Shown here one piece after another: positions 3,166 to 58,114 of a DNA stretch of 58,260 nt. Position 1 is the first letter of the stretch; the number at the start of each line of letters is the position of its first letter. The DNA is taken from positions 1-58,260 of the IMG/VR virus record IMGVR_UViG_3300042344_000667. One strand, given 5' to 3'. This DNA comes from a virus. Below the pieces are notes generated by a model, which was given only the letters and a program-made list of their open reading frames with translations, did no database searches and was not told the origin of the DNA. The translations under genes and the position numbers were made by a program.

Positions 3166-4673
3166 TGGGCATCCGCACCAACATTCTGCGTCGTATTGGC
3201 CTCCAGCCGATTCCCAAGGCACTGCCACCTGTGAGGCGGCGTAATTATGCGGGCGCAATCATCAGTCGCCTAACTGCGGATTGGATGTCGTCACAAGCGA
3301 GTGCGGACGCTGAAATTCGCACCAGTCTGCGCAAGCTGCGTGATCGCAGCCGCGAAATGGTGCGGAATAATCCGTACGCAAAGCAGGCAAAGCGGACAAC
3401 GCAAATCAACGTTGTCGGCAGTGGCATCAAGATGCAGTCGCAGGTTGCATTGCTGCGCGGTAATCGCCGTGATGAGCGGACAAACAGCTTGATTGAGCAG
3501 GAGTGGGCGTCTTGGTGCCGCGCTGAGCATTGTGATGTAGCTGGGCGCCAAAGCTTCCACATGATGGAGTGGTTGGCAATTGGCGCACTGCCGGAGTCAG
3601 GAGAGGCGCTGTTCAGGATTGTTCGCCGTCCGTTCGGTGGCAGTCGAGTGCCATTGGCGCTCCAAATGCTTGAGGCTGATTACCTGGATGAGGAGTATCA
3701 AGGCCCAACCCTCGCCCAGGGGAACGAATGGCGTATGGGCGTGGAGGTCAATGAATGGGGCCGCCCTGTGCGGTACGCCTTCCTCACGCGCCATCCAGGT
3801 GACTATTGGTTCCAGAATGCGCCGCAGCGAAATGAAAAGCATGTCTTCCTGCCGGCGGAAGATGTCATTCATTTGTTTATCCCAGAGAGGCCACAACAGC
3901 ATCGTGGCGTGCCGTGGTTCCACTCTGTGATGGCCGATGCGCATCAACTTCAAGGGTATGAAGAAGCTGCTGTGATTCGGGCGCGCGCTGGTGCGTCAAT
4001 CATGGGTTTTATTACGAATCAAGAGGGCGAGCTAAATGCTGACGACGTCGACAACGAGCGTCGGATCAGTGAGTTTGAGCCAGGGATGTTCAAGTATTTG
4101 ATGCCGGGCGAGAACGTGACGGTGCCAAGCATCGACTCGCCAGATCAGCAATTTGAAATGTTTGTCAAAAATAAAGTACGTCGATTTGCGAGCGGTTTTG
4201 GCTGCTCGTATGAAACGCTAAGCCGTGATTTTAGTGATACGAATTATTCGAGCAGCAGGCTGTCGTTGCTTGAGGATCGGGAGCACTGGAAGGTGGTGCA
4301 GGCTTATCTGATTGAGCATTTCCACTTGCGCGTATTCCGTGAATGGCTGTCGCTGGCTGTGCTTGCTGGTGAGCTGCCGTTTGATGACTTTGAAGCGCGG
4401 CCTGAGCGTTATGACACGCCGCGCTGGATGGCGCGTGGCTGGGATTGGGTGGATCCGCTCAAGGAAGTGAAGGCTTATCGCGAGATGGAGCAGGCGGGTT
4501 ATATGACCAAGGCGCAAATTGTTGCGAAACTTGGCGGTGATTTTGACGATAATTTAGCCGAGATTGCTCGCGAGCAAGCTGCTGCTGAACGTTTGGGTGT
4601 TGAGTTGGATCGGGACATCATTGAGCAGCCGATGTTGCCGGCTGATCAACCGTTACCGCAGGAGGAAGGCTGA
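3165..4673 (+). CDS. Portal protein, lambda gpB family
   Basis: Predicted dodecameric head vertex through which DNA enters and leaves, 502 residues, the usual length for the family. The N-terminal part has the typical NNPYAKQAKRTTQINVVG segment, followed by the central portal core with YEEAAVIRARAGA and a C-terminal clip/wing region including GFGCSYETLSRDFSDTNYSS, a hallmark segment of lambda-type portals. It overlaps its neighbours by TGATG at both ends, suggesting translational coupling with connector and capsid genes. Confidence 0.92.
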   Translation: MGIRTNILRRIGLQPIPKALPPVRRRNYAGAIISRLTADWMSSQASADAEIRTSLRKLRDRSREMVRNNPYAKQAKRTTQINVVGSGIKMQSQVALLRGNRRDERTNSLIEQEWASWCRAEHCDVAGRQSFHMMEWLAIGALPESGEALFRIVRRPFGGSRVPLALQMLEADYLDEEYQGPTLAQGNEWRMGVEVNEWGRPVRYAFLTRHPGDYWFQNAPQRNEKHVFLPAEDVIHLFIPERPQQHRGVPWFHSVMADAHQLQGYEEAAVIRARAGASIMGFITNQEGELNADDVDNERRISEFEPGMFKYLMPGENVTVPSIDSPDQQFEMFVKNKVRRFASGFGCSYETLSRDFSDTNYSSSRLSLLEDREHWKVVQAYLIEHFHLRVFREWLSLAVLAGELPFDDFEARPERYDTPRWMARGWDWVDPLKEVKAYREMEQAGYMTKAQIVAKLGGDFDDNLAEIAREQAAAERLGVELDRDIIEQPMLPADQPLPQEEG

Positions 4674-7573
4674 TGGGCGCAATGCCGACTGATGGAATGA
4701 GGGAAGAGGCGCGACGTTATCGCGCATGGAAAGAAGAGGGACGCAAGGGTGGAACTGAGGTTGCAGCCAGGCGTGCTGGGCAGATTTTGAGCGGTGATGA
4801 GCTGAGCGATGAGACTATTCGCACGATGAGTGCATGGTTTGCTCGTCATGAGATTGACAAGCGAGCTGATGGTTTCAGTCCTGGCGAAGAAGGGTATCCA
4901 TCGCCTGGCAGGGTGGCATGGGCGGCCTGGGGAGGTGACTCGGGTAAAACATGGAGTGATGCACTTGTGGCTCGCATGGAATCTGACCGTGAGTTGACTG
5001 TTGATCTGACTGCGCCACAGGTGCAGTTGTATGAGGCTTACGAGGAAATAGCCGAGGAGCTTGGCCAATTTGGTCAGGATGCTGGACCGCATGGTTCGCA
5101 TTACATGGCGCAGAGCCCTTTCGCGGGTGACGGCATGGTGTGCGCGAATTGTGTGTTTTATGCGGGTCCGCGTGCTTGCGAGATTGTGAGCGGCGATATC
5201 GCTCCTGAAGGTGTTTGCAAGTTTTGGATTATTCCAGAGCGATTGATGAGCGAATCACCAGAGACGGGGGAAGGGCGACCGTATCCCAATGAGCATGCCG
5301 CGAGACTGCGTGATCCCGATCAGTACGATCGTTTCCGCCGTCGCAATAATGCAGCCGGTAAAGGTGTTGATTTTATTTTCGGTATCAAGACTGGTGAGAG
5401 TGGTGCTGAATTGCAGGCAATTCGTTTCAAGCTTTCTGAGTTCACTGCTGCTGAAGCGCGTACGTGGCTGCGTGAGCGTGACTATGAGCCGCTTCAATTT
5501 GAAGAGGCAACAGGTGAGCGTTCTAAGGTGGACGAAATTGAGAACGCAGCCGTGACTGAAAAACGTGCAGCGCCTGACGCGCTGAAGGAGGGTGATTTTG
5601 TTTCGTGGAACAGCTCTGGCGGTCGCGCGCGCGGTCGTATTGAGCATGTGATGCGCGAGGGTACGTTGGGCGTGCCTGACACTGAATTCAGCATTGATGC
5701 AACCGAAGAGGATCCGGCTGCGTTGATTCGGATTTATCGCGACGGTGAGGCGACTGAGACGATGGTGGGTCATCGTTTTAGTACTTTGACCAAGATCGAT
5801 CCGATCCGTGCGACTGAGGGCGGCAAGTTTCAGCGATCTGAGGTCACATCATTCCGCGCGCTGGATGAAGAGCGGAGCTTCGAATTTCCGTTTAGCTCTG
5901 AGTATCCGGTGATGCGCTACTTCGGGAATGAAGTGCTGAGCCACGAGATGGATGCAGCAAACCTGAGTCGTCTGAACGATGGCGCCCCGCTGCTGTTTAA
6001 TCACGATCCTGATCGCGTGGTCGGCGTTGTGGAGCGCGCTTGGGTTGATGGGCAGAAACGACGCGGTTATGTGAAGGTGCGCTTCTCGCGTAACAAGTTT
6101 GCGCAAGAAGTGCTCGACGATGTCCGCGATAATATTTTGCGCGGCATCAGCTTCGGCTATTCGATCGACAAGATGGAAGAGCGCGGAGATGACTTTGTAG
6201 CGACCAGATGGTCGCCTTACGAAGTCAGCGTGGTCTCTATACCTGCTGACCCTACGATTGGAATCGGCAGGTCTCTAACTGACGAGACCGTTGTTCAAGC
6301 GGCCCCAGCCGCATCACCAACACCTGAACCCGAAATGGAAAACACTCCAGATCTGGAGGTGATCCGGTCCGAGGCCGTCGAGGCCGAGCGTACCCGTATC
6401 GCCGCCATCAGTGCACTGGGCGATAAGCACCAGATGCAAGACCTGGCTCGCGAGCTGATCGACGGTGGTCGCACTATCGACGAAGCTCGTGCTGCTGTCC
6501 TTGAAAAACTCGGCACTCAACCCGTGGAACAAGTCATTCGCTCTGCTGACATCACCTCTAACGATGTCGGCCTCTCCGATAAGGAGACCCGTTCGTTCAG
6601 CTTTGCTCGCGCACTGAACTTCCTTGCTAACCCCAGCGACGTTTCTGCTCGTCGGGCTGCCGAGTTTGAGATCGAAGTCGGTAAGGCTGCTGCTCAAAAG
6701 TATGAGCGCTCCTCTAACGGCATCGTGATCCCCAACGAGGTGCTGCGTCGTGATCTGGTGGTGGGCACTCCTACTGCTGGTGGCAACCTGGTTGCCGATG
6801 AGCTGCTGGCCGGTAGTTTCATCGACCTGCTGCGCAATCGTCTGGCACTGGCCCAGGCTGGCGTCACCATGCTGACCGGCCTGCAGGGCACCATCAGCAT
6901 CCCCCGTCAGACTTCTGCTGCTACCGCCTACTGGGTGGGTGAGAACGGTTCGCCGACCGAGAGCCAGCAGGCAATCGATCAGGTCAACATGACCCCCAAG
7001 ACTGTGGGTGCTTTTGTTGATTACAGCCGTCGTCTGCTGCTGCAGTCTTCCATCGATGTGGAAGGCATGATCCGGAACGATCTTGCTCGCGTGATCGCTC
7101 TCGAGCTTGACCGCGCTTCCATCTACGGCACCGGCTCTAGCAACCAGCCCCTTGGTCTGACCAACACCACCGGTATTGGCAGCCAGACCATCACCACCTT
7201 CGGTACTTTTGCTGAGTACATCGGCATGGAAACCGATGTGGCATCTGCCAACGCCGATGCCGGCAGCCTGCGTTACATCATCAACGCTGCTGCTCGCGGT
7301 GCTCTGAAGTCGACCGAAAAAGCGACCAATACTGGCGCTTTTGTCTTTGAGGACAACGAGATCAACGGCTACCCCGTGATCGTGTCGAACCAGCTCCAGA
7401 ACAACGATGCGCTGTTCGGCGACTTCTCCATGATGATCATGGGCATGTGGTCTGGTCTGGATCTGACTGTTGATCCTTACGCCGGTGCTACCGCTGGCAC
7501 CGTCCGCGTTATTGCTCTGCAGGACGTGGATGTGGCTGTGAAGCAGCCTGGCGCCTTCTGCCTCGGCACCTGA
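4673..7573 (+). CDS. Accessory domain + prohead protease + major capsid protein fusion (HK97 type)
   Basis: A 966-residue polyprotein. Residues about 1-105 form a basic domain (YRAWKEEGRKGGTEVAARRA, then WFARHEIDKRADGF and WAAWGGD) common ahead of cyanobacterial phage proteases. About 155-190 is Cys-rich (VCANCVFY, CEIVSGD, VCKFW). About 400-545 is a serine-type HK97 prohead protease (FPVSS-like opening, NHDPDRVVGVVERAW, GISFGYSI, SPYEVSVVSIPADP). About 555-640 is a delta/scaffold-like region, and about 640-966 is the HK97 capsid fold (RSFSFARALNF, then TSAATAYWVGENG). Codon usage shifts near 6290 to C-ending, highly optimised codons, consistent with separate origin or high capsid demand. Self-cleavage would release the mature capsid protein. 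Confidence 0.9.
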   Translation: MGAMPTDGMREEARRYRAWKEEGRKGGTEVAARRAGQILSGDELSDETIRTMSAWFARHEIDKRADGFSPGEEGYPSPGRVAWAAWGGDSGKTWSDALVARMESDRELTVDLTAPQVQLYEAYEEIAEELGQFGQDAGPHGSHYMAQSPFAGDGMVCANCVFYAGPRACEIVSGDIAPEGVCKFWIIPERLMSESPETGEGRPYPNEHAARLRDPDQYDRFRRRNNAAGKGVDFIFGIKTGESGAELQAIRFKLSEFTAAEARTWLRERDYEPLQFEEATGERSKVDEIENAAVTEKRAAPDALKEGDFVSWNSSGGRARGRIEHVMREGTLGVPDTEFSIDATEEDPAALIRIYRDGEATETMVGHRFSTLTKIDPIRATEGGKFQRSEVTSFRALDEERSFEFPFSSEYPVMRYFGNEVLSHEMDAANLSRLNDGAPLLFNHDPDRVVGVVERAWVDGQKRRGYVKVRFSRNKFAQEVLDDVRDNILRGISFGYSIDKMEERGDDFVATRWSPYEVSVVSIPADPTIGIGRSLTDETVVQAAPAASPTPEPEMENTPDLEVIRSEAVEAERTRIAAISALGDKHQMQDLARELIDGGRTIDEARAAVLEKLGTQPVEQVIRSADITSNDVGLSDKETRSFSFARALNFLANPSDVSARRAAEFEIEVGKAAAQKYERSSNGIVIPNEVLRRDLVVGTPTAGGNLVADELLAGSFIDLLRNRLALAQAGVTMLTGLQGTISIPRQTSAATAYWVGENGSPTESQQAIDQVNMTPKTVGAFVDYSRRLLLQSSIDVEGMIRNDLARVIALELDRASIYGTGSSNQPLGLTNTTGIGSQTITTFGTFAEYIGMETDVASANADAGSLRYIINAAARGALKSTEKATNTGAFVFEDNEINGYPVIVSNQLQNNDALFGDFSMMIMGMWSGLDLTVDPYAGATAGTVRVIALQDVDVAVKQPGAFCLGT

Positions 7574-28521: not shown

Positions 28522-28542
28522 TTAACCATTACCACTAATCGC
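28522..28542 (+). promoter_or_regulatory. Heptad leader repeat before ATG 28545
   Basis: Three consecutive 7-base units, TTAACCA, TTACCAC and TAATCGC, end two bases before the start codon. There is no Shine-Dalgarno sequence. The phase is identical to the leaders at 51735, 54452, 55500, 55705 and 56777. Confidence 0.6.
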
Positions 28543-28544
28543 CC

Positions 28545-28700
28545 ATGACTGAAGAACAAATTGAAATGCTTCGCTGCATCATCAAACAAGAGATTGAAGC
28601 GGCTGGTATTGATGGTATGGAGCACGGCGCTTGGGGCTGGGCGGAACGAGTGCTTGATGAAAACTGGGAAGAGTTTAGAAAATCCTTCGACGTCCAGTAG
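28545..28700 (+). CDS. Small acidic protein (51 aa)
   Basis: ATG 28545 opens a 51-residue acidic helical protein: MTEEQIEMLRCIIKQEIEA, then GAWGWAERVLDENWEEF. It starts 23 bases after the previous gene behind a heptad leader rather than a Shine-Dalgarno site. Family unknown. A direct repeat, a palindrome and a terminator follow it. Confidence 0.65.
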   Translation: MTEEQIEMLRCIIKQEIEAAGIDGMEHGAWGWAERVLDENWEEFRKSFDVQ

Positions 28701-42898: not shown

Positions 42899-43125
42899 CA
42901 ATCCTCCGCAAGCCGAACCAGTGTGTGCCCTGCCAGCATGCCGCGCACCTTAATCAATGCATGCGAATAATCACGCGCCTCAAAGCGCACCGTCTTGACT
43001 AGCTGCGTCGACCGGCTTCGAACAGTCGCAACAAAAGGGCGCTCCTCCCTCAAGCCACGCAATGCCTCTGCGCGGCCAGGCGACTCCGGCACCCCAGCAC
43101 GTTCCAAAATCTCAGTCCAATCCAT
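42898..43125 (-). CDS. Hypothetical protein (75 aa), heptad-led
   Basis: MDWTEILERAGVPESPGRAE then ALRGLREERPFVATVRSRS and FEARDYSHALIKVRGMLAG. Compact and charged. It is the first gene of the leftward operon to 38892 and has a heptad leader instead of a Shine-Dalgarno site. Family unknown. Confidence 0.65.
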   Translation of the reverse strand: MDWTEILERAGVPESPGRAEALRGLREERPFVATVRSRSTQLVKTVRFEARDYSHALIKVRGMLAGHTLVRLAED

Positions 43126-43127
43126 AA

Positions 43128-43141
43128 GCGGTAACCCTTAG
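43128..43141 (-). promoter_or_regulatory. Heptad leader repeat before ATG 43125
   Basis: On the minus strand the units CTAAGGG and TTACCGC are followed by TT and ATG. The last unit and its two-base gap match the plus-strand leader at 51735-51748. Confidence 0.5.
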
Positions 43142-47753: not shown

Positions 47754-50593
47754 TGAAAAACATAAAATCCAGTGACTGGGTGGCAGTAGCCGCTGCCCTT
47801 GGCGGACTTGATCGCCATCAGCTCAATGGCTCACCATCGAAGTGCCCTCTCTGCGGCACTGACGACTCCTTTATTTTTGATAGCGAAACCGGATACTGGC
47901 AATGCTCGGGTCCGCACCCCGACTTCGGTCGCTGTAGCGGTATTCGTCACGATGGCGGGCCTGATGTCCTTTCTAATTTTCTTGCTCGATTACTGAAAAC
48001 AACTCCTATTGAACAAGACCAAAACATTGAAGCCTTTATTGCTTCTATGAAGATTGACTTTGAGCAGTCAAGAGCATTTGTCAAAGCCCTGCAAAAACCG
48101 CCAACATCCATCAGACTTCGCGGTTTCTACGACAAAACAGACCCACGCAAATCAGAGGACAAAGGCGCCAAAGGAGCAGCTTCAAAGGAGTTGGTACAAG
48201 CATGGGTTGCTGACCGTCGCGGTGTTTACGTAGTAGTCAACGATGGAGGTGACAAAGACGCCGAAATCACCAATTGCCGCTCTTTCTTTTGCGAATGGGA
48301 CAATAAGCCTAAGGACTGGCAGGTAACTGCTTGGCAGGAACTTGAACTTCCAGAACCTACAATCCAGGTCGACACTGGCGGTAAATCAATCCACAACTAT
48401 TGGGTACTGGCAGAGTCAATCGCCCCAGATGCTTGGCGTGACATCCAAACACGTCTTCTTGAGTTTGCAGACGCCGATCGTTCGCTGAAGAACCCTTCTC
48501 GGGTGATGCGCCTACCAGGCACTCCACACCCCGCAACTGGAGAAGTGTGTCAAATAATCCACGCATCTGATAAAATTTACCTCGCAAGCGATATATCAAA
48601 ACTGCTACCTCTTACAGAGCAAATCAAACAACAAGAGGCGGCATCGAAATCTTCATACACCCCTCAAGATATATCTGAAATTAAAAAAGCTTTATCTTTT
48701 ATCGCGCCGCGCATCCCAGGCGGTGAAACCTATTTCTTTTATCGCAATCTTCTCTGGGGACTTGTCAAGGCAGTTGAAGAAGCTGGCAGCACCCTCGATG
48801 AAGCCGTCGCAATCATGGAGGCTCATTCACCTCAATGGAAGGGCATTCGTCAAATCGCAACATCAGGTGGTGACAAAATCAACCCCGGCACCTTCTGGTA
48901 TCACTGCATCCAAAACGGCTACAAACAACCCAAGCGTACCGTCGCACCTCCACCTCAAATAGCCCAGCAGGTCACTACCCCAACTTCAGATTTCCCCTTC
49001 CGCCTCCTTGGCTTTGATCGCACTACTTTTTACTATCTTCCAAAATCTTCTGCTCAAGTAATATCGATTACTGCCGCTCAACACAACAAAAACTACTTCT
49101 ACCTTCTCGCTGAATTGGAATGGTGGGCGCATGGTTTTTCGGCCGAAAACGGGCGCATAGACTGGGATTCTGCTCAAGATGCCATCATCAGCGCCTCCAT
49201 CGCTCAAGGCGTTTATGATCCATCCCGCATCCGTGGCCGTGGTGCATGGACCGATGCTGAACGTGTCATCTTTCACCTAGGCAATCGCTTAATCGTTGAT
49301 GGCAAATCGCATCCGATTACTAATCTCCCGGCCAGTTTTGAAAGCTATTACTTCTACGAACACGCCAAAGCAATCGACGGCCCCGGCTCTGAACCTTTAT
49401 CTGATAATGCCGCTCGCGAAATATCAAACATTGCTGAACGCTTCCGCTGGGAAACACCCGCATCCGCTCAGCTCCTTCTTGGCTGGATTGTTCTCGCACC
49501 TGCATGCGGCGCCCTTAACTGGCGTCCGCACATCTGGATCACAGGTGGCGCGGGCACTGGCAAGACCACCATCCTCAAGCAGTTCATGAAGCCACTCCTC
49601 GGCGGCATGTACGAAGGCGCTACCGGCGGCACCACTGAAGCTGGCTTGCGCGGTCAGCTCCGTTCAGACGCCATCCCTGTCGTTTTTGATGAGCTTGAGC
49701 AGAACGAACAGAAGGACAAGCAGATCGTTCAGAACATCCTTGCTCTCGCTCGCATCGCCTCATCTGAAGGCGGAAAGATCTATAAGGGCACCGCGACCGG
49801 CGGATCCAACACCTTTGAGATCCGCTCCATGTTCTGCGTCTCTTCCATCAACGTCGCTTTGGTGCAGCGGGCTGACCTGGATCGCTTTTGCGTTCTAGCC
49901 CTCCGTAAAGACGAAATGGAGCGCGACGACTGGACCTGCTTCGAGCAGGCCATCCTCGACACCTGTACTGAAGAGAACGGTCGCCGTTTAATCGCGCGCA
50001 CCCTTAAGCACATCCCATCCATTCGCAAGAACGCCAAGACCCTCGCCACTGCCCTCTCGCGGCGGTTTGGCCAGCGTTTTGGTGATCAATACGGAACGCT
50101 CCTTGCCGGCGCGTGGAGTCTGGAGCCAAACGGCGGGGGGGAGCTGTCGCTGGAACACGCGCTCCAATGGATTGATCAGATGGATTGGGAGTCGCGCGAG
50201 ATCGACGGCAACGACGCTGACGAGACCAAGTGCCTCAACCACATCCTTCAGCACCTGCTGCAGGTTGAGGGTGGCAAGCGCATGAGCGTGATCGAGCTAA
50301 TCGGACTCGCCAGGCGTGGTGTGATGTTTGCATTGCCTGGCCGCGATCAGCCGTCTGACGAGGTGGAGACGATCCTTGGTCGCTATGGCTTGCGCGTAAT
50401 GGATGGGGAACTAGCCATCGCAAATAACAGCACAAACCTGCAGGCAATCTTGCGCGAGACGCCGTGGGCTGGGACGGCCTATCGGCAGGCGCTAAGGAGG
50501 GTGCGAGGAGCGTCTGCAAGCGGCGCAGGAATTCGTTTTAAGGGCATGGGGGTGTCACGGGCGACCCTTGTGCCACTCGAGCGATTGGAATAG
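47753..50593 (+). CDS. Primase-helicase replication protein
   Basis: A 946-residue protein. Residues about 30-60 form a primase zinc finger (CPLCGTDDSFIFDSETGYW). About 155-300 is a RepB/archaeo-eukaryotic-type primase domain: VVVNDGGDKDAEITNCRSFF and TIQVDTGGKSIHNYW. About 560-790 is an SF3/D5-like helicase with GGAGTGKTT near 600 and VVFDELEQ near 645. Such proteins prime and unwind at phage or plasmid origins. The putative origin repeats lie immediately downstream. No DNA polymerase is found in the window. Confidence 0.85.
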   Translation: MKNIKSSDWVAVAAALGGLDRHQLNGSPSKCPLCGTDDSFIFDSETGYWQCSGPHPDFGRCSGIRHDGGPDVLSNFLARLLKTTPIEQDQNIEAFIASMKIDFEQSRAFVKALQKPPTSIRLRGFYDKTDPRKSEDKGAKGAASKELVQAWVADRRGVYVVVNDGGDKDAEITNCRSFFCEWDNKPKDWQVTAWQELELPEPTIQVDTGGKSIHNYWVLAESIAPDAWRDIQTRLLEFADADRSLKNPSRVMRLPGTPHPATGEVCQIIHASDKIYLASDISKLLPLTEQIKQQEAASKSSYTPQDISEIKKALSFIAPRIPGGETYFFYRNLLWGLVKAVEEAGSTLDEAVAIMEAHSPQWKGIRQIATSGGDKINPGTFWYHCIQNGYKQPKRTVAPPPQIAQQVTTPTSDFPFRLLGFDRTTFYYLPKSSAQVISITAAQHNKNYFYLLAELEWWAHGFSAENGRIDWDSAQDAIISASIAQGVYDPSRIRGRGAWTDAERVIFHLGNRLIVDGKSHPITNLPASFESYYFYEHAKAIDGPGSEPLSDNAAREISNIAERFRWETPASAQLLLGWIVLAPACGALNWRPHIWITGGAGTGKTTILKQFMKPLLGGMYEGATGGTTEAGLRGQLRSDAIPVVFDELEQNEQKDKQIVQNILALARIASSEGGKIYKGTATGGSNTFEIRSMFCVSSINVALVQRADLDRFCVLALRKDEMERDDWTCFEQAILDTCTEENGRRLIARTLKHIPSIRKNAKTLATALSRRFGQRFGDQYGTLLAGAWSLEPNGGGELSLEHALQWIDQMDWESREIDGNDADETKCLNHILQHLLQVEGGKRMSVIELIGLARRGVMFALPGRDQPSDEVETILGRYGLRVMDGELAIANNSTNLQAILRETPWAGTAYRQALRRVRGASASGAGIRFKGMGVSRATLVPLERLE

Positions 50594-50987: not shown

Positions 50988-51716
50988 ATGGCCCGCTCCA
51001 TCGAATTCGACGCCGAAAAGCTGATCGGGAGCATCGACGCCTTGCGCGGTGCTCAGCTTCCATTCGCTGGTAACCGCGCCCTGCAGCAGCTCGGTTTTCA
51101 GCTCAGGCAGGACCTGCAGCGTGAGATGCGCGACAAGTTCGAGAACCCGGTGCCGTTCACGCTCTCTAGCCCGCGTTATCGGGTGGATGGGCTCGAGCTG
51201 ACGGTGTCGATTTCGAAGGACGGGGCGAAGGGGCAGGATCCGGCGCGGTATTTGTTCCCGGTGACTGCTGAGGGGGGCGGGGCTGGTGGCGGGAAGCCTG
51301 CGTACATCACACGCTTCACTAGGGCCGTGCGAGCGCTTGGTGTGGTGGATGCGAGCTACTACGCGATTCCGTTCCTGAAGGGTCGTGGCGTGCGGGTGAA
51401 CGCCTACGGGAACATGTCGCCTGGCCAGTATCAGCAGGTGCTGCAGGGGCTGAAGACGGGCATGGGCGCGGGCAGGCAGGGGTCGCAATGGCGGTACTTC
51501 TCGGTGCCGGATGGTCGAGGTGGCGGTCGCAACACGGGTCGGTTGAAGCCGGGCATCTACCGAGCGAAGTCGAACGACGTGCAGCTCCTGTTCACGTATG
51601 CGCGCAGGCAACCGACAGTGCCGGTGCTGTTTGATTTCGAGGGTGTGGTGGCTCGTCGTTCGCAGGAGCTGCTGCCGTCGCTGCTGTCGCGGGCGCTTGA
51701 CAACGCGCTGAAATAG
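50988..51716 (+). CDS. Phage structural protein (neck/minor tail type)
   Basis: A 242-residue basic protein: MARSIEFDAEKLIGSIDALR, LPFAGNRALQQLGFQLRQDL, REMRDKFENPVPFTLSSPRY and GRGVRVNAYGNMSPGQYQQV. This is the pattern of phage virion or tail-completion proteins otherwise found between capsid and tail tube genes. Its placement amid replication genes is unusual. ATG 50988 has no clear ribosome site. Confidence 0.7.
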   Translation: MARSIEFDAEKLIGSIDALRGAQLPFAGNRALQQLGFQLRQDLQREMRDKFENPVPFTLSSPRYRVDGLELTVSISKDGAKGQDPARYLFPVTAEGGGAGGGKPAYITRFTRAVRALGVVDASYYAIPFLKGRGVRVNAYGNMSPGQYQQVLQGLKTGMGAGRQGSQWRYFSVPDGRGGGRNTGRLKPGIYRAKSNDVQLLFTYARRQPTVPVLFDFEGVVARRSQELLPSLLSRALDNALK

Positions 51717-51734
51717 GTGCCATAATTCGTGGCG

Positions 51735-51748
51735 TTATCGCTTACCGG
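51735..51748 (+). promoter_or_regulatory. Heptad leader repeat before ATG 51751
   Basis: Units TTATCGC and TTACCGG are followed by TT-ATG. There is no Shine-Dalgarno sequence in the 30 bases upstream. Confidence 0.65.
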
Positions 51749-51750
51749 TT

Positions 51751-52473
51751 ATGTCGGTTGATTCGTTGAGGAAGCAGGTGCGGCAGGCAGACGCGGCTTA
51801 CAGGGCCGGCCAGGCGCTGATGACCGATGCCGAGTTCGATGCGCTGTGTGCAGAGCTGCGCGTGGTGGCACCGATGGCGCCAGAGCTGCAGCAGCCAGGC
51901 GGTGGTACGGCGCTGTTGTCGCTCGATAACGGCCTGCTCGAGGATTGGTGGCCTGGTGTGCCGGTGTTGGTGCAGCCGAAGATCGACGGCGCTGCAGTGG
52001 CGCTGCGCTACGAGCGTGGTGTGCTTGCTGCGGCGTGGACACGGAGCGGCCGCGATTGCATGGCGGTGGTGCAGGGGCTGGTGCCTGCGCGGCTGCCTGT
52101 GAGTGATGTGTTGGAGGTGCGCGGTGAGCTGTGGGGGCACGATGGCCGCCAGAGCACGCCAGCGACGGCTCTGAGGCGCATGAAGGGTGGTTCAGGTGGT
52201 TTGGGCTTCATCGCATACGGAGGCGCCTTCCAGGAGCGCACAGAGATCGATGCGATGGCGTTGATCGGCGACCTGGGTTTCGACGTGGTCGATTCACTGC
52301 TCACCACCCGCATCGATGAGGTGCAGGGGCTGCATGCGAAGTGGAAGGCAGGGAGGCTGTGGAATCGCCCGTGGGGTACCGATGGCGTGGTGGTGAAGGT
52401 GGTCTGCCGTGAGCTGCAGCGCGAAATGGGCGAGACCGGCCGCGCACCTCGGTGGGCGCTGGCCGTTAAGTGA
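51751..52473 (+). CDS. Minimal NAD-dependent DNA ligase-like adenylation domain
   Basis: A 240-residue protein matching the LigA nucleotidyltransferase domain: an N-terminal helical part (LRKQVRQADAAYRAG), LSLDNGLLEDWW, the adenylation lysine in QPKIDG (Lys77), LEVRGELW, FIAYG, TDGVVVKV and RAPRWALAVK. The oligonucleotide-binding, zinc, helix-hairpin-helix and BRCT parts of bacterial LigA (about 670 residues) are missing. It may be a compact ligase or an adenylyltransferase acting on another target. Confidence 0.8.
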   Translation: MSVDSLRKQVRQADAAYRAGQALMTDAEFDALCAELRVVAPMAPELQQPGGGTALLSLDNGLLEDWWPGVPVLVQPKIDGAAVALRYERGVLAAAWTRSGRDCMAVVQGLVPARLPVSDVLEVRGELWGHDGRQSTPATALRRMKGGSGGLGFIAYGGAFQERTEIDAMALIGDLGFDVVDSLLTTRIDEVQGLHAKWKAGRLWNRPWGTDGVVVKVVCRELQREMGETGRAPRWALAVK

Positions 52474-52503
52474 TCGCTTTGTTTAACTCTTATTTTTTTA
52501 ATC

Positions 52504-52833
52504 ATGAAACGCACAGTGATTTTTTTTGCCGCAATTCTTCAGCAGTTGGTGCCTGCGCCAGCAGATGCACGGCCAGTGACTGCAACGGTTTACGACGGTT
52601 GGTATCACGGTCGCACTGAATATTGCGGCGGCACATATCAACACTGGGGAATTTCAGCAGCGCATCCATGGCTGCCGTGTAACACGCGGGTGACGGTGCG
52701 ACACCGAGGGCGCGTGCTCGTCGTGCCGATCCGTGACAGGTGCGATTGCAATTCGATCGATCTCAGTGCTGGTGCTGCACATCGCCTTGGTGTGCCGCTG
52801 GATGGCATCGCGACAGTGCAGATCTCATATTGA
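52504..52833 (+). CDS. Secreted RlpA/expansin-like double-psi barrel protein
   Basis: A 109-residue protein with a signal peptide (MKRTVIFFAAILQQLVPAPA, cleavage near residue 22) and a DPBB domain: VTATVYDGWYHGRTEYCGG, GISAAHPWLPCNTRVTV, RVLVVPIRDRC and SIDLSAGAAHRLGV. RlpA-like domains act on peptidoglycan or bind it. In a phage this may aid lysis or alter the envelope of the infected cell. Confidence 0.8.
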   Translation: MKRTVIFFAAILQQLVPAPADARPVTATVYDGWYHGRTEYCGGTYQHWGISAAHPWLPCNTRVTVRHRGRVLVVPIRDRCDCNSIDLSAGAAHRLGVPLDGIATVQISY

Positions 52834-52868
52834 GACTCACTGCGCCGGAAGGAATCTCATCTGTCTCA
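52831..52868. promoter_or_regulatory. TGAGAC ... GTCTCA inverted pair
   Basis: TGAGAC at 52831 (overlapping the RlpA-like stop) and GTCTCA at 52863 flank the region just before ATG 52872. They match the hexamers at 50599-50625. Confidence 0.4.
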
Positions 52869-52871
52869 ACT

Positions 52872-53288
52872 ATGAAGCTCATCACCCGTCACACCCGCGC
52901 TCCACGCGCTGGCGCCTTCATTCGCTGCCCTTACTGTCAAGAGGTATCGCTTGTGCATCACTTCTGCTGGAGCGCGCTCACTTGCGCGCATTGTTCGGAG
53001 TCGGTCTCGAAGCCGAGTTGGGCTTACTGCGATCGCACCGAGGTGGATCCGCTCACGATCCTGCAGCTCGGCTCACCCGTCACTCTCCGCGATGACGACG
53101 AGTGGGCATCGTGGTTGCCTGATGGCGATCGCGTGATCTCGATGTACGGCACTGGCGGTCATGTATCGCACAGCCGCAATCGAATGGAAGGCCGCATCCA
53201 GATCTCGCGTGAGGTTGCGTTGCGGCAGGTTCAGACACATCTTGAATACGGCTGGAAGATGGACACACGCGGCAAGGGGCTGATCTGA
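52872..53288 (+). CDS. Zinc-ribbon protein (138 aa)
   Basis: After a basic N-terminus, IRCPYCQEVSLVHHFCWS and LTCAHCSESV give CPYC and CAHC zinc knuckles. The C-terminal half (DDEWASWLPDGDRVISMYG, REVALRQVQTHLEYGWKM) is unfamiliar. TGAGAC/GTCTCA repeats precede it. Function unknown, possibly nucleic-acid binding. Confidence 0.7.
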   Translation: MKLITRHTRAPRAGAFIRCPYCQEVSLVHHFCWSALTCAHCSESVSKPSWAYCDRTEVDPLTILQLGSPVTLRDDDEWASWLPDGDRVISMYGTGGHVSHSRNRMEGRIQISREVALRQVQTHLEYGWKMDTRGKGLI

Positions 53289-53554
53289 TGAGTACTGGAT
53301 CTCGTTCGCTGCGGCTTGCTGATCAGCTTGCGCGTCAGCCGTATGTATGGCCCGGTGGCTACCCGCTGCATGGTGTCACCGACGATGGTGGCGTGATCTG
53401 TCGTATCTGCGCTGTTGATGAACGTGAATCAATCGCGTTGACTGACGGGCGTGATGGATGGTGCTTGATTTCGCTTCGGGTGAACTGGGAAGACCCGGAG
53501 CTGCGATGTGATTGCTGTGGGCGGGTTGTGGAGGCAGCGTATGAAGACGATTGA
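53288..53554 (+). CDS. Small Cys-rich protein (88 aa), WPGGYP family
   Basis: LRLADQLARQPYVWPGGYPL, then TDDGGVICRICAVDE, DGWCLISLRVNWEDPELRC and CDCCGRVVEAAYEDD. CRIC and CDCC probably bind zinc. The WPGGYP...DDGGxxCxxC...NWEDPxxxCDxCG pattern occurs in several phage groups. ATG overlaps the previous stop (TGATG). Confidence 0.75.
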   Translation: MSTGSRSLRLADQLARQPYVWPGGYPLHGVTDDGGVICRICAVDERESIALTDGRDGWCLISLRVNWEDPELRCDCCGRVVEAAYEDD

Positions 53555-53954
53555 AAAGGACAGGGACCCGCTGTGTGTCGGTTTTTATTGCTTTCTTGCG
53601 CAGCCAAAAAAATTTAGGAACCCTGGAGGTTCGGTTTTTATAGGGGTATTTTTACTTTTATTTACATACACATTCCGATCCGTTTTTACCCCCTTCCGCC
53701 CAGCCGCAGCGAGAGACGCGGGATTGCGCCGCCAAAAAACACACCCCTATTATATATAGATAGTGCTGCATGGTTTGCAACAGCATGCAAGTGCGATTGC
53801 AGGAGAGGTGTAGCGAACCGCGTGGAGGGTTGGCTACATCGCAATCGCGATTGCAGGCGCCGGCATGCACGGGCGCAGAGAGTTAGCAACACAAACTCGC
53901 GGTGAGTTTGCATCGGTTACTGCTGCGCGGTTGGTATTTGCAATTTGCGCCGGC
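53555..53954. other. Noncoding region with AT-rich and TGCA-rich segments
   Basis: No convincing gene is seen. TTTATAGGGGT at 53637 is the exact complement of ACCCCTATAAA at 50732 in the putative origin, and CACCCCTAT with TATATATA follows at 53742. From 53765 to 53945 there are many TGCA-containing boxes, including a direct repeat CGATTGCAGG (53793 and about 53850). GTTAGCAAC near 53882 is inverted as GTTGCTAAC near 54247. A second origin or regulatory region is possible. Confidence 0.45.
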
Positions 53955-54214
53955 TTGGTGAAGCTCACTACCCCGTGGGGTTGGTGAAGCTCACTACCCC
54001 GTGGGGTTGGTGAAGCTCACTACCCCGTGGGGTTGGTGAAGCTCACTACCCCGTGGGGTTGGTGAAGCTCACTACCCCGTGGGGTTGGAGATGCTCACTA
54101 CCCCGTGGGGTTGGTGAAGCTCACTACCCCGTGGGGTTGGTGAAGCTCACTACCCCGTGGGGTTGGTGAAGCTCACTACCCCGTGGGGTTGGTGAAGCTC
54201 ACTACCCCGTGGGG
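53955..54214. repeat. Tandem array of ten 26-bp repeats
   Basis: Ten consecutive units, nine identical; the sixth (54085-54110) differs at two positions. Each unit contains GTGA-AGC-TCAC and ACCCC-GT-GGGGT inverted repeats. The 26-base period and stop codons in every frame exclude coding. Iterons, a binding array for a phage protein, or an RNA of stacked hairpins are possible roles. Confidence 0.9.
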
Positions 54215-54451
54215 TGAGTTAGCTACCGCTACCCGTGCGGGTTTGGGTTGCTAACTGCGCGCGGGTTGCTGATGCGATCGCGCGGCGGGGTTGCTGATGC
54301 AAACCCGAGGCCGCCCGCTGATGGGGTGACCTGTGCCGAGGGTGGCCCGGGTGGCTGTGCCGGGAGCAACCCGGCCGGGTGGGCCGGTGGCACCCTCGCT
54401 ATGGGGTGTGGGTTGCCAGGTGGGCGGGGGCGGCTATATAAAGGGTGGGCG
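54215..54451. other. GC-rich noncoding leader of the cassette
   Basis: Contains a degenerate eleventh repeat with ACCCG-TG-CGGGT at 54231, two GGTTGCTGATGC copies (54264 and 54290), a HIP1 site GCGATCGC at 54274, and TATATAA at 54434 shortly before the heptad leader. The last could be a -10-like element for the cassette. Confidence 0.4.
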
Positions 54452-54465
54452 TTATCGCTTATCTC
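54452..54465 (+). promoter_or_regulatory. Heptad leader repeat before ATG 54468
   Basis: Units TTATCGC and TTATCTC followed by TT-ATG. TATATAA lies about 12 bases upstream of the first unit. Confidence 0.65.
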
Positions 54466-54467
54466 TT

Positions 54468-55418
54468 ATGTCGACCTTGATTCCTGCCGATCAGGCCCTC
54501 GCGATCCTGCGCGCTGCGGGCGTGAACGCTGCTAAGAGCCCCGCGCGCGGGCGCTGCCGCACCCTTTGCTATCTGGTGGGCGGTCAATACGTGAACCTCG
54601 GCCGACTGCGGGAGCTCGCCCGGGAGGCTCAGGCCGCCCAGGCTGAGCCCGCCCGGGTGGTGGCTGAGCCTGAGGCTGAGGCTGTCGCCCACCTGTGCCG
54701 CAAGTTCCCCATCAGCACCCCCGCCACCTGGATCCCTGCTGTCGCCCGCCTGCAGGCCCGGGGTGCGGCTGTGACCGTGGGCGCAATCCTGCGGGAGACT
54801 GAGCGCCCTGCCCCTGTGCTGCCGGGTGAGGCCCGCCCCGGTGCTGCCCCTGAGCCCCTCGCCCAGGTGGAAGTCGACCCTTACAAGCGGGGTGAGTGGC
54901 AGCGCACAGGTATTGGCCCCGATCCTGTGGCCGTTGCTGAGCGCAGGGCGGCCAGGTGGGCTGAGCGCAACCCAGAGCACTCTTATCGAGTTGTGGTTGT
55001 GGCCCCACGTCCGGTGCTGCCGGGTGAGACTGAGCCCCCGGCCCCTGTTGCGCAGGATGGCCCGGCCCCTGATCTGCCGAACCTGGCCACCCCCGCGCCC
55101 ACGGGTGACGGCTGGGCGGGGCAGCCGTGGGACCCCGGCACCCCTGAGGCCCGCGCGCGGGTGGCGCAGCAGGGTGAGCGGGTGGCAACCCTGTGGCCCA
55201 TCGCCCAGGCTGTTAAGGGTGCGGGGTTTGATCTGCCGCCCGTGTGGTGGGCTGATGGCCCGATCCTGGCTGGTGAGCGAACCTATGGGGAGGCCCTGGC
55301 TGCGCTGCCCCTGGGCGCAATTGCGGCAGCCGCTGCCGCCCTGGCTGCGCTGCCGCCCGTTACGGCTGCGCAGGATCGGGCGCTCAGGCTGTGTCGGGGT
55401 GACCTGGCCGCAGTGTGA
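54468..55418 (+). CDS. Unknown Ala/Pro-rich protein (316 aa)
   Basis: N-terminal segment MSTLIPADQALAILRAAGVN followed by RCRTLCYLVGGQYVNLGRL looks like a folded DNA- or protein-binding unit (AxxILRAAGV...). A long Ala/Pro/Glu-rich middle contains repeated PVLPGE segments near residues 115 and 185. The C-terminus (TYGEALAALPLGAIAAAAAA) is Ala-rich. Very high GC and codon bias to GCC/CTG/GGC. No family recognised. Confidence 0.65.
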   Translation: MSTLIPADQALAILRAAGVNAAKSPARGRCRTLCYLVGGQYVNLGRLRELAREAQAAQAEPARVVAEPEAEAVAHLCRKFPISTPATWIPAVARLQARGAAVTVGAILRETERPAPVLPGEARPGAAPEPLAQVEVDPYKRGEWQRTGIGPDPVAVAERRAARWAERNPEHSYRVVVVAPRPVLPGETEPPAPVAQDGPAPDLPNLATPAPTGDGWAGQPWDPGTPEARARVAQQGERVATLWPIAQAVKGAGFDLPPVWWADGPILAGERTYGEALAALPLGAIAAAAAALAALPPVTAAQDRALRLCRGDLAAV

Positions 55419-55499
55419 CAATTGCGCAGCCTTGCCACCCGGTAGGGGCTGCGCTGCTCACCTGGCCCCATAGTGGGTCTGCGCCCGCAGGGCGCCCCT

Positions 55500-55520
55500 T
55501 TATCTCTTACCTGTTGCCTC
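55500..55520 (+). promoter_or_regulatory. Heptad leader repeat before ATG 55523
   Basis: Three units, TTATCTC, TTACCTG and TTGCCTC, followed by TG-ATG. Confidence 0.65.
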
Positions 55521-55522
55521 TG

Positions 55523-55690
55523 ATGTTGAACCGTTCCGCCGCTGCCGCCCTCGCTGCAGGCCTTGCTTTCGGATCCTGTGCCCTGGCTGTTTGCCTGACT
55601 GCGGGGATTAATCAGGCCCTGGCCCTGGCCGCATGCCGGGAGGATGCCGCCTTGGCCCGTATCTCTGCTGATCACTGCGCCCTGCGCTGA
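55523..55690 (+). CDS. Small membrane or exported protein (55 aa)
   Basis: MLNRSAAAALAAGLAFGSCA then LAVCLTAGINQALALAACRE: one long hydrophobic Ala-rich segment, possibly an uncleaved signal anchor, and a short polar tail. No lipobox is certain, although GSCA resembles one. Heptad-led; function unknown. Confidence 0.55.
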   Translation: MLNRSAAAALAAGLAFGSCALAVCLTAGINQALALAACREDAALARISADHCALR

Positions 55691-55704
55691 TTCTCCCGCC
55701 TCTC

Positions 55705-55725
55705 TTATCTCTTACTTGTTAACTG
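55705..55725 (+). promoter_or_regulatory. Heptad leader repeat before ATG 55728
   Basis: Three units, TTATCTC, TTACTTG and TTAACTG, followed by CC-ATG. They begin 14 bases after the previous stop. Confidence 0.7.
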
Positions 55726-55727
55726 CC

Positions 55728-56465
55728 ATGCAAACCCTTTCTCACCCTTACGATCCCGCCGCCCTAACTGCCCTCGGATGCGACAGGGTGGCCACTGATG
55801 TTGCCCACGGCCCCGTGGTGAGCTCCCGCGCGGCTGTCGTTGTCCGCTACGGCTGCGATTCTCAGGGCCGGGGCCAGTGGGTCGCGACCCTTAAGCGCAG
55901 TTCTCGCGACAGGGCCGCCCGGCTGGCCGTACCTGCCGCCGATGGCCCGGATGCGGCAGCCGCTGCCCTTCTAAAACGGCAGGGCCTGCCATGGCGCGCC
56001 CTGCCCGCTGTGGGCTCACTTGACGGGGGCGAGTCCTATGCGTACGTAACGGCCCTCACCCCCAGCGAGGGCGAGGCCCTGGCCCATGGCGCCCAGGCGA
56101 TACAGGCCCTGGCCGCATGCCGGGAGTTGGTGGCGGCCTGTGCTGCCGGGGCTGATGCTGAGGCCCTGGCCCTGCCGCTGATGCTGGCCAGGATGGCCAC
56201 CGGGCAGGAGAGGGGCGCGCGCCCAGTGGTTGCTGGGTTCGCCCTGATGCGTTACGGGGTTGAGGTTAGGGGCATCCTGGGCGAGGCCCTTTTCACCCTG
56301 CCCGATACCTACAGCCCCGCCCACGTCTTGGCCTGCGCTGAGGTTGCCGGCTGGCTTTTGACCGCTGAGATGCGGGCGGTAGCCGCCCGGCATCGTGAGG
56401 TTTGCGCATCTGAGCCTCACCCGGACGGGGTGGCGATCGCGCGGGCTGCCCGGGGGGTGGCCTGA
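55728..56465 (+). CDS. Unknown protein (245 aa) of the GC-rich cassette
   Basis: MQTLSHPYDPAALTALGCDR, VVSSRAAVVVRYGCDSQGRG, then DGGESYAYVTALTPSEGEAL and an Ala-rich helical C-terminus. The first 130 residues look like a compact alpha/beta fold; I do not recognise it. It starts MQT, as does the last gene of the cassette. The stop overlaps the next start. Confidence 0.6.
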   Translation: MQTLSHPYDPAALTALGCDRVATDVAHGPVVSSRAAVVVRYGCDSQGRGQWVATLKRSSRDRAARLAVPAADGPDAAAAALLKRQGLPWRALPAVGSLDGGESYAYVTALTPSEGEALAHGAQAIQALAACRELVAACAAGADAEALALPLMLARMATGQERGARPVVAGFALMRYGVEVRGILGEALFTLPDTYSPAHVLACAEVAGWLLTAEMRAVAARHREVCASEPHPDGVAIARAARGVA

Positions 56466-56716
56466 TGGCACGCCAGCACAGGATCCAGCCCGGCGATCGG
56501 GTGCGTTACAGCTCCACCTTCTGTCAGCAGATGGGGGCGGTTACCGGCTGGCTCCCACAGGCCCGGGGTGTGGTGGTGGCCCTGTGGGGTGGCGGCCAGG
56601 ATCTGGCCCGTATCCGTTGGGATCACCACCCGGATGGCCCGGGCACCCTGGGCGGCGCCCACGTGGAGAACCTCCAGCGCCAAACCCCTGACGGCAGGTG
56701 GGCGCCCCGCCGCTGA
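56465..56716 (+). CDS. SH3/KOW-like small protein (83 aa)
   Basis: IQPGDRVRYSSTFCQQMGAV then TGWLPQARGVVVALWGGGQD and LARIRWDHHPDGP, ending with HVENLQRQ. This beta-rich pattern (GDRVRxSxxFxxxxGxxTGxxPxxRGxVxxL) is common in small phage proteins. Translationally coupled (TGATGG) to the gene upstream. Function unknown. Confidence 0.75.
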   Translation: MARQHRIQPGDRVRYSSTFCQQMGAVTGWLPQARGVVVALWGGGQDLARIRWDHHPDGPGTLGGAHVENLQRQTPDGRWAPRR

Positions 56717-56776
56717 TGGCCACCCGGTGCCCTGCCCCTGCCCGGGGTGGGCACCCTGTGGCCCTCGCCCGGCCTC

Positions 56777-56797
56777 TTACCTATTACCTGTTACCTC
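56777..56797 (+). promoter_or_regulatory. Heptad leader repeat before ATG 56800
   Basis: Three nearly identical units, TTACCTA, TTACCTG and TTACCTC, followed by AA-ATG. This is the cleanest array in the window. Confidence 0.75.
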
Positions 56798-56799
56798 AA

Positions 56800-57885
56800 A
56801 TGCAAACCACAGCAACCGCCACCCGTTGCGCCCCCGTGAGGATGCCGGCTGATATCAGCGCCCACCTGGCCCGGTTTGGCCTCACCCTGGGCGACCTGTT
56901 GACGGATTCAAACCCCAAAATGCAAAAGGGCAGCGCTCAGGCTGTGGGGGTGATTCTTCACCACCTGCCCGCGCGCGCCCTGGCTGCCGCTGTCACCCCC
57001 GGGCACCGGGGCAGCACAGCACCCCGTAGTTATTTGCCCGCCCTCGCCCACCTGGCCGATAGAGAGGGGCTGGGCGAACAGGCCCGCGCCCATAACGGCT
57101 GCCCCTGGGCTACGGCTGGCTGTGCTGCCGGCTGTCTCAACTGGGCGGGCCACGGGGGGCTTAGCCCGGCTGTTGCTGCTGCTCGTGGGCGTCGCACTCT
57201 TGCGATGCTGGCGGATCCTGGCCTTTACGGGCGGGCGATTCTGTGGGCGATCGTGAGGGCGTGGGCGCGCGCCCAGGCTCAGGGGCTGCCCCTGGCCGTG
57301 AGACTGCGCGGAACCGATGAAGGCCCCCGGTGCGGCTGGCATCGGCTGGGGTTGCTTGTGCCGGTTGCTGATGCTGTGGCCCTGGCCCATAGGTTTGGCG
57401 CTGCTATCAGCCCCGGGGCCGTCACTCTGGCCGAGGCTTTGGGCGTCTTGCGCAGTGAGGGCGCTCTCTACCTTTATGAGTATTCAAAGGCGCCCCTATC
57501 AGGCCCTTTGGGGCTCTGGGCTCAGGCTGATGCCGGGTTTGACGTGACAGCCAGCCTGGCTGCCGATCGGGCTACGGCTGTGGCTGATGCGGCCCTGGCT
57601 GTTCGCGCGGGATTCCGGTTGGCTGTGCCCGTGGCCCTGCGCAAGGGGCAGCCGCTGCCGGTGGCCCTCGCCCTGGCCCCGGATCACGGGCCAGCCGTAA
57701 CGGTGCCTTGCGTTAACGGTGACCTCTCAGATCACAGGTGGGCGGATCCTGAGGGCGTAGCCGTGATCCTGCGCAGCAAAATGAGCCGAGGGGCAGGGCC
57801 TGAGGCTGCCCCGTTCCACCTGGCCCCGATCGCTGACGCCCAGCCCCTGGCTGATGGGGCCGCCCGTCTGATCTGGGCGCCCTGA
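56800..57885 (+). CDS. Gp88-domain protein
   Basis: A 361-residue protein. SNPKMQKGSAQAVGVILHHL begins the domain, then GCPWATAGCAAGCLNWAGHG with Cys101, Cys108 and Cys112, AARGRRTLAMLADPGLYGRA and VRLRGTDEGPRCGWHRLG. This matches the 'gene product 88' family of mobile elements and phages, with a Cys cluster that may bind a metal. Biochemical function is unestablished. The C-terminus includes HRWADPEGVAVILRSKMSRG, resembling the NDxRxxDPxGxxVGLxxKG segment of these proteins. Confidence 0.8.
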   Translation: MQTTATATRCAPVRMPADISAHLARFGLTLGDLLTDSNPKMQKGSAQAVGVILHHLPARALAAAVTPGHRGSTAPRSYLPALAHLADREGLGEQARAHNGCPWATAGCAAGCLNWAGHGGLSPAVAAARGRRTLAMLADPGLYGRAILWAIVRAWARAQAQGLPLAVRLRGTDEGPRCGWHRLGLLVPVADAVALAHRFGAAISPGAVTLAEALGVLRSEGALYLYEYSKAPLSGPLGLWAQADAGFDVTASLAADRATAVADAALAVRAGFRLAVPVALRKGQPLPVALALAPDHGPAVTVPCVNGDLSDHRWADPEGVAVILRSKMSRGAGPEAAPFHLAPIADAQPLADGAARLIWAP

Positions 57886-57911
57886 GCCTTATCCCATAGC
57901 CTCAGCTCCTG

Positions 57912-57942
57912 GCCCTCGCCCTTTACCGGGCGGGGGCTTTTG
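57912..57942 (+). terminator. Strong terminator at end of the GC-rich cassette
   Basis: GCCCTCGCCC pairs with GGGCGGGGGC around TTTACC, followed by TTTTGTTG. A ten-pair GC stem. Confidence 0.85.
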
Positions 57943-57946
57943 TTGT

Positions 57947-57976
57947 GCCCTCGCCCTGTTGATCGGGCGGGGCTTT
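57947..57976 (+). terminator. Second terminator-like hairpin
   Basis: GCCCTCGCCC again pairs with GGGCGGGGC around TGTTGATC and is followed by TTTGCTG. It appears to be a duplicate of the first terminator. Confidence 0.65.
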
Positions 57977-58114
57977 GCTGTGCCGAGCGTGGGCAGTTGC
58001 GCCCCGGTTGCTGTCACACTGGGCGGCTGATTCCAGCCCGGGCGCCCCGTAACTTGGCTTGCAATTGCGCAGGGGTGAGCATCAGCAACCGCCCCGCAAT
58101 ATCGGCAGCCGCCC
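57977..58114. other. Noncoding region before cos
   Basis: No gene seen. GCATCAGCAACC near 58079 is the inverted copy of GGTTGCTGATGC at 54264 and 54290. Several TGCAA boxes are present. Confidence 0.35.

Follow-up and report, generated by a model that had tools for sequence, protein, structure and literature searches.

The choice of a start codon in the absence of a Shine-Dalgarno sequence is not well understood, particularly in cyanobacteria, and the viral DNA described here raises this question at several of its genes, where 7-base units (heptads) stand in tandem just before the ATG. The window (the whole stretch of DNA that was analysed) is the IMG/VR virus record IMGVR_UViG_3300042344_000667, 58,260 bases in length. 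An initial annotation had claimed that two or three such units per gene end exactly two bases before the ATG, and had proposed for them either an alternative translation-initiation or RNA-binding signal, or a slippage-prone array which tunes expression by unit number. The leaders, the genes behind them and the one promoter-like site nearby are as follows:

28522..28544, plus strand, probable degenerate heptad leader TTAACCA TTACCAC TAATCGC CC, filling a 23-nt gap
43126..43134, minus strand, single unit TTACCGC followed by TT, preceding a 75-aa gene that starts at 43125
51697..51726, plus strand, promoter-like site TTGACA-18-CATAAT with 11/12 consensus matches
51735..51750, plus strand, heptad leader TTATCGC TTACCGG TT, preceding the ligase-domain gene at 51751
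51751..52473, plus strand, NAD-dependent DNA ligase adenylation-domain protein
52483..52503, plus strand, degenerate leader TTAACTC TTATTTT TTTAATC, preceding the DPBB-domain gene at 52504
54452..54467, plus strand, heptad leader TTATCGC TTATCTC TT, preceding the ATG at 54468
54468..55418, plus strand, protein whose N-terminal part is common to L034:2406 and L070:1523
55500..55522, plus strand, heptad leader TTATCTC TTACCTG TTGCCTC TG, directly 3' of the hairpin 55481-55495
55523..55690, plus strand, short ORF of 55 aa
55705..55727, plus strand, heptad leader TTATCTC TTACTTG TTAACTG CC, within a 37-nt gap
55728..56465, plus strand, protein with homologs in L034, L070 and L083, likewise with heptad leaders
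56777..56799, plus strand, heptad leader TTACCTA TTACCTG TTACCTC AA, preceding the ATG at 56800
56800..57885, plus strand, GP88-like protein (PF17338)

The tandem arrangement, with its last unit two bases before the ATG, is exact at 51751, 54468, 55523, 55728 and 56800, while the other starts originally named fared unevenly. At 43125 (minus strand) the string TTACCGC-TT-ATG is conserved, with one full unit rather than the two or three claimed, and at 28545 the leader is plausible by its sequence and by the gap that it fills, but an ortholog of the ORF behind it (51 aa) was sought in the relatives and none was found. The leader at 52504 is degenerate indeed, and relatives retain TAACTCTTATTT there. 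Two further supposed degenerate cases had to be given up, since in the relatives the conserved stretch before 28995 (GAATCGGTAATCCGCC) does not contain repeated units, and no credible units exist before 38599. As to the surroundings of these leaders, the ligase gene (51751-52473) encodes only 240 aa and seems to comprise the adenylation domain alone, TATATAAA lies about 10 bases upstream of the 54452..54467 leader, and the hairpin 55481-55495 is G+C-rich.

The host is likely a picocyanobacterium, as judged from the phage relatives, because the capsid-portal protein is nearest to those of the Synechococcus phages S-CBS1, S-CBS3 and S-LBS1 and the primase-like protein to that of Synechococcus phage S-H1. 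IMG/VR holds one nearly full-length relative (G022, 58,171 bases), partial relatives (G034, G038, G039 and G040) and two more distant ones (G041 and G045). A DNA search of plasmid and phage collections with the window returned no matches, as did a protein search of plasmids with two genes of the module at 54.2-57.9 kb, and a short-query search of annotated phages returned chance-level matches only. Phage genes that match a 966-aa ORF of the window (4673-7573) carry the annotation major capsid protein, to which some records add portal protein; the middle segment of the ORF appears variable, because many relatives match it in two or three pieces.

Within the window, TTAYC pairs at a lag of 7 nt number six, five of which directly precede an ATG (the sixth lies within the primase ORF, at 48692), while 200 dinucleotide shuffles of the window averaged 0.13 such pairs and never exceeded 2. 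At lags 5, 6 and 8-13 the window has no TTAYC pair, and at lags 14 and 15 one each, the lag-14 pair coming from a three-unit array. The six clade members (the window, G022, G034, G038, G039 and G040) hold 23 lag-7 pairs, 22 of them before an ATG, which correspond to about a dozen distinct cases, given that G039 and G040 are nearly identical and that the members are kin; at the other lags from 5 to 15 they hold 10 pairs in all. The heptads are direct 7-nt repeats without spacers, in two or more copies, all on the sense strand and ending within several nucleotides of the start codon. They are a real, conserved and non-random start-codon element, whose location, orientation, recurrence and lack of a Shine-Dalgarno sequence are matters of direct observation.

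Comparison with the relatives shows which properties of the element are kept. Heptads before starts recur in the clade, but the fixed two-base spacing holds only within the window genome: among the relatives, 2 and 5 bases are the usual intervals between the last unit and the ATG (a distance of 9 being counted as 2), some leaders have 0, 1, 3 or 6, and the phase is not conserved either. The 51751 leader is retained in relatives with 77-99% protein identity, and even the ligase homolog of G041 (41% protein identity) has TTACCGC TTACCCG before its ATG. The leader at 43125 is TTACCGC in the window and TTACCTC or TTACCTT in relatives, each followed by TTATG, which keeps the TTACC core and varies positions 6-7. 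Beginning at the 26-bp repeat array, DNA-level alignment with G022 fails for the module at 54.2-57.9 kb, whose proteins are 40-51% identical over matched stretches, and both gene sets have heptad leaders; for instance, TTATCTC TTACTTG TTAACTG CC ATG in the window corresponds to TTACCGC TTACCGC TTGCCTG CC ATG in G022. More generally, the sequence of the units drifts between orthologs at 50-78% protein identity, but their number stays at two or three. These similar numbers, together with the differences between units of one leader and the copy number of only 2-3, speak against the proposed tuning of expression by slippage.

For the GP88-like gene, homologs in other phages (54-60% identical to that of the window) have no heptad leader, except for G045/L097. 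The idea that this gene gained its leader after transfer from a heptad-free phage was dropped, as the tree joins most heptad-bearing homologs in one group (89/99) with long branches (the L070 row being mistranslated). In heptad-free L103, L105, L109 and L124 the region before the GP88-like gene often contains a short hairpin of the GGCGCGAGCC type and, 3' of it, a C-rich leader that lacks a Shine-Dalgarno motif.

At which level do the heptads act? Many of them sit in short same-strand operon gaps (about 23-83 nt, often 23-37 nt), and the gaps of 23-37 nt are almost wholly occupied by units. The promoter-like site at 51697..51726, the only one found in 51.5-58.3 kb, ends 8 bases before the 51751 leader; the predicted transcript would begin close to the first heptad, which would leave a leader hardly longer than the heptads themselves. 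The sense orientation, the fixed place and the lack of a promoter inside the operon argue for action at the RNA level, and translation is the step most likely affected, because the operon gaps leave no evident space for a promoter.

A Shine-Dalgarno motif (GGAG, GAGG or AGGA at -18 to -4) is present in 0/17 heptad leaders versus 12/31 other starts, these being hand-picked from the ORF list (Fisher p=0.002), and a purine-rich anti-Shine-Dalgarno match sought at -5 to -13 is absent from the heptad leaders. The earlier statement that heptad starts mostly go without a Shine-Dalgarno sequence while other genes have one is thereby upheld, and the motifs cited before 29700, 35465 and 39305 were confirmed. 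The predicted unpaired fraction of the region -22 to +3 is 0.57 for heptad leaders, versus 0.45 for other starts (p=0.004) and 0.37 for random positions. Lack of structure nevertheless fails to explain the 7-nt order, because the predicted accessibility of the native leaders barely exceeds that of leader-shuffled ones (0.566 versus 0.524, native being higher in 12/17).

Based on these features, we give a probability of about one half to the reading that the heptads would act on the RNA as an initiation element independent of Shine-Dalgarno pairing, the probable reader being ribosomal protein S1 or a different OB-fold protein. The sense strand, the operon gaps, the missing Shine-Dalgarno sequence, the accessible start and the recurrence in diverged relatives support the alternative initiation or RNA-binding signal proposed at the outset. 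The repeats would be cis-acting mRNA elements, in which each gene presents two or three sense-strand 7-nt units that share the core UUAYC, end at about -3 to -6 and so lie where the Shine-Dalgarno sequence is normally found. Their most likely role would be to bring in the 30S subunit in the absence of Shine-Dalgarno pairing, and they might do so by offering an unstructured, pyrimidine-rich and repeated site to S1 or a similar OB-fold protein. To our knowledge, S1 is not known for sequence-specific reading, which counts against this protein as the reader; the lack of such leaders in the likely host family also weighs against the reading. In a stricter form, which we consider quite unlikely, the leaders would be a modular, sequence-specific initiation code free of Shine-Dalgarno pairing: a dedicated protein of phage or host would recognise one UUAYC in every seven bases, and the third unit would set the start codon by its register; if true, this code would be the phage clade's own translation channel.

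The same leaders could also be the targets of a phage-encoded translational regulator which, on binding the units, would cover the start codon and switch a set of genes, the spaced copies permitting cooperative binding. In phage T4, RegA and gp32 have translational operators around the start codon, with gp32 covering about 7 nt per monomer, and the heptads are likewise phage elements around the start codon, although the sequences differ. Such a regulator would fit a feature that is found in the phage clade but does not exceed the control in 300 Cyanobiaceae genomes, that retains the TTAYC core while other positions drift, and whose 7-nt period continues into the start codon (TTAYCNN-TTATG). 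However, among the window proteins tested we recognised neither a RegA or gp32 homolog nor any RNA-binding protein family, and the genes concerned (ligase, GP88-like and others) have no visible common regulon logic, so we see this explanation as possible but unlikely. Were the units instead DNA operators, a repressor would bind 7-bp direct sites beside promoters and the nearness to the ATG would follow from short leaders, which agrees with the good promoter before 51751 and with TATA-like boxes similarly spaced before 54468 and the relatives' first module gene. The omega repressor of pSM19035, which has 7-bp sites in promoter regions, is of this kind, but its consensus WATCACW is incompatible with TTAYCNN; moreover, every unit is in sense orientation and the majority occupy short gaps within operons where no promoter is visible, which makes operators very improbable.

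Slippage could also have produced heptamers that persist neutrally, since intergenic DNA before an ATG is free to carry them. Heptanucleotide repeats are common in some bacteria (PMC4679880), and unrelated contigs do contain long perfect TTACCNN arrays, most of which are not near start codons. Against this origin, already weakened and in our view distinctly improbable, stand the 22/23 pairs that precede an ATG, the diverged units that stay in register within a leader, and the register kept in orthologs only ~50% identical. Pairing of the units with 16S rRNA outside the anti-Shine-Dalgarno stretch was suggested by the 530-loop GCGGUAA, which is complementary to the frequent unit TTACCGC. With the 16S rRNA of a Cyanobium-related genome, 7/8 leaders paired no better than their shuffles and the best run of the eighth was equalled by 8/100, so rRNA pairing was rejected as the reader of the heptads and is scarcely credible. 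A search against Rfam 15 gave no window match above the gathering score.

Nor do the heptads reflect a host-wide habit. In four Cyanobium-like genomes the close TTACC pairs total 13, of which one is at lag 7, and 300 Cyanobiaceae genomes have 22 triple units versus about 36 in the reversed control; the likely host family (the host itself being deduced from the phage relatives) is at or below control, and this explanation was rejected. Across the phylum (244 genomes), TTAYCNNTTAYCNNTTATG has 94 occurrences and the control 37; nearly all of the former are in larger genomes, mainly in repeats such as TTACCAA and TTATCAG, and in 4/12 cases examined the ATG opens a long ORF. These intergenic heptamers (TTACCAA, TTATCAG, TTACCCA) are the same kind of 7-nt unit with a TTAYC core, a few ending in TTATG at the start of a long ORF, but they are nearly perfect repeats, often away from gene starts, in genomes larger than those of the likely host family.

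The closest described arrangement is that of Cand. Maribeggiatoa (Beggiatoaceae), where TAACTGA direct repeats stop a few bases short of start codons that for the most part lack a ribosome-binding site (MacGregor 2015, PMC4679880). There are ~170 sets of 2-6 copies, which related 7-mers can interrupt; the heptamers are present in some cyanobacteria and Bacteroidetes too, and S1, cold-shock or CsrA-like proteins have been proposed as readers, with a cited binding of one CspB per heptamer (PMC4679880). Both systems have 7-nt direct repeats, mostly or wholly in sense orientation, near the start codon, usually without a ribosome-binding site. They differ in the unit, which is nearly invariant for TAACTGA and degenerate (TTAYCNN) in the phages, where it is nearer to the reverse complement TTATCAG, and in the carrier, a chromosome in one case and a small phage clade in the other. 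Since the architecture is common while unit, orientation and carrier differ, we regard the phage leaders as a variant of this rarely described arrangement and, within the open-access literature, as the first phage-clade case known of such heptamer leaders. Shine-Dalgarno-independent initiation with ribosomal protein S1 in cyanobacteria was reportedly described by Mutsuda and Sugiura in 2006 for rbcS, which shares with the phage leaders a similar host group and the dispensable Shine-Dalgarno sequence; as far as we know, no heptamer repeats have been described there. The clade offers a compact natural set of leaders with a common period and core and differing other positions, and the Shine-Dalgarno genes of the same genome are built-in controls, which makes the question testable with simple reporters.

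Repeats of other kinds were also seen. When 4-fold TTACCNN arrays were sought, most of those found were ordinary perfect repeats distant from starts, and long perfect arrays (up to ~16 units) occur in the unrelated viral contigs L292, L307, L313 and others. The module at 54000-58000, which has 69% G+C versus ~53% in the rest of the genome, is the part exchanged for a diverged module in G022. Upstream of the module lie 25-26-bp tandem arrays (window 53955-54215; L034 2044-2211; L070 1254-1360; L083 12186-12330; L082 11545-11740), whose period is kept while the unit sequence differs between lineages. Short palindromes, GTGAAGCTCAC and GGTGATGCTCACC among them, form the cores of these units, and the array is a candidate iteron, centromere or operator array.
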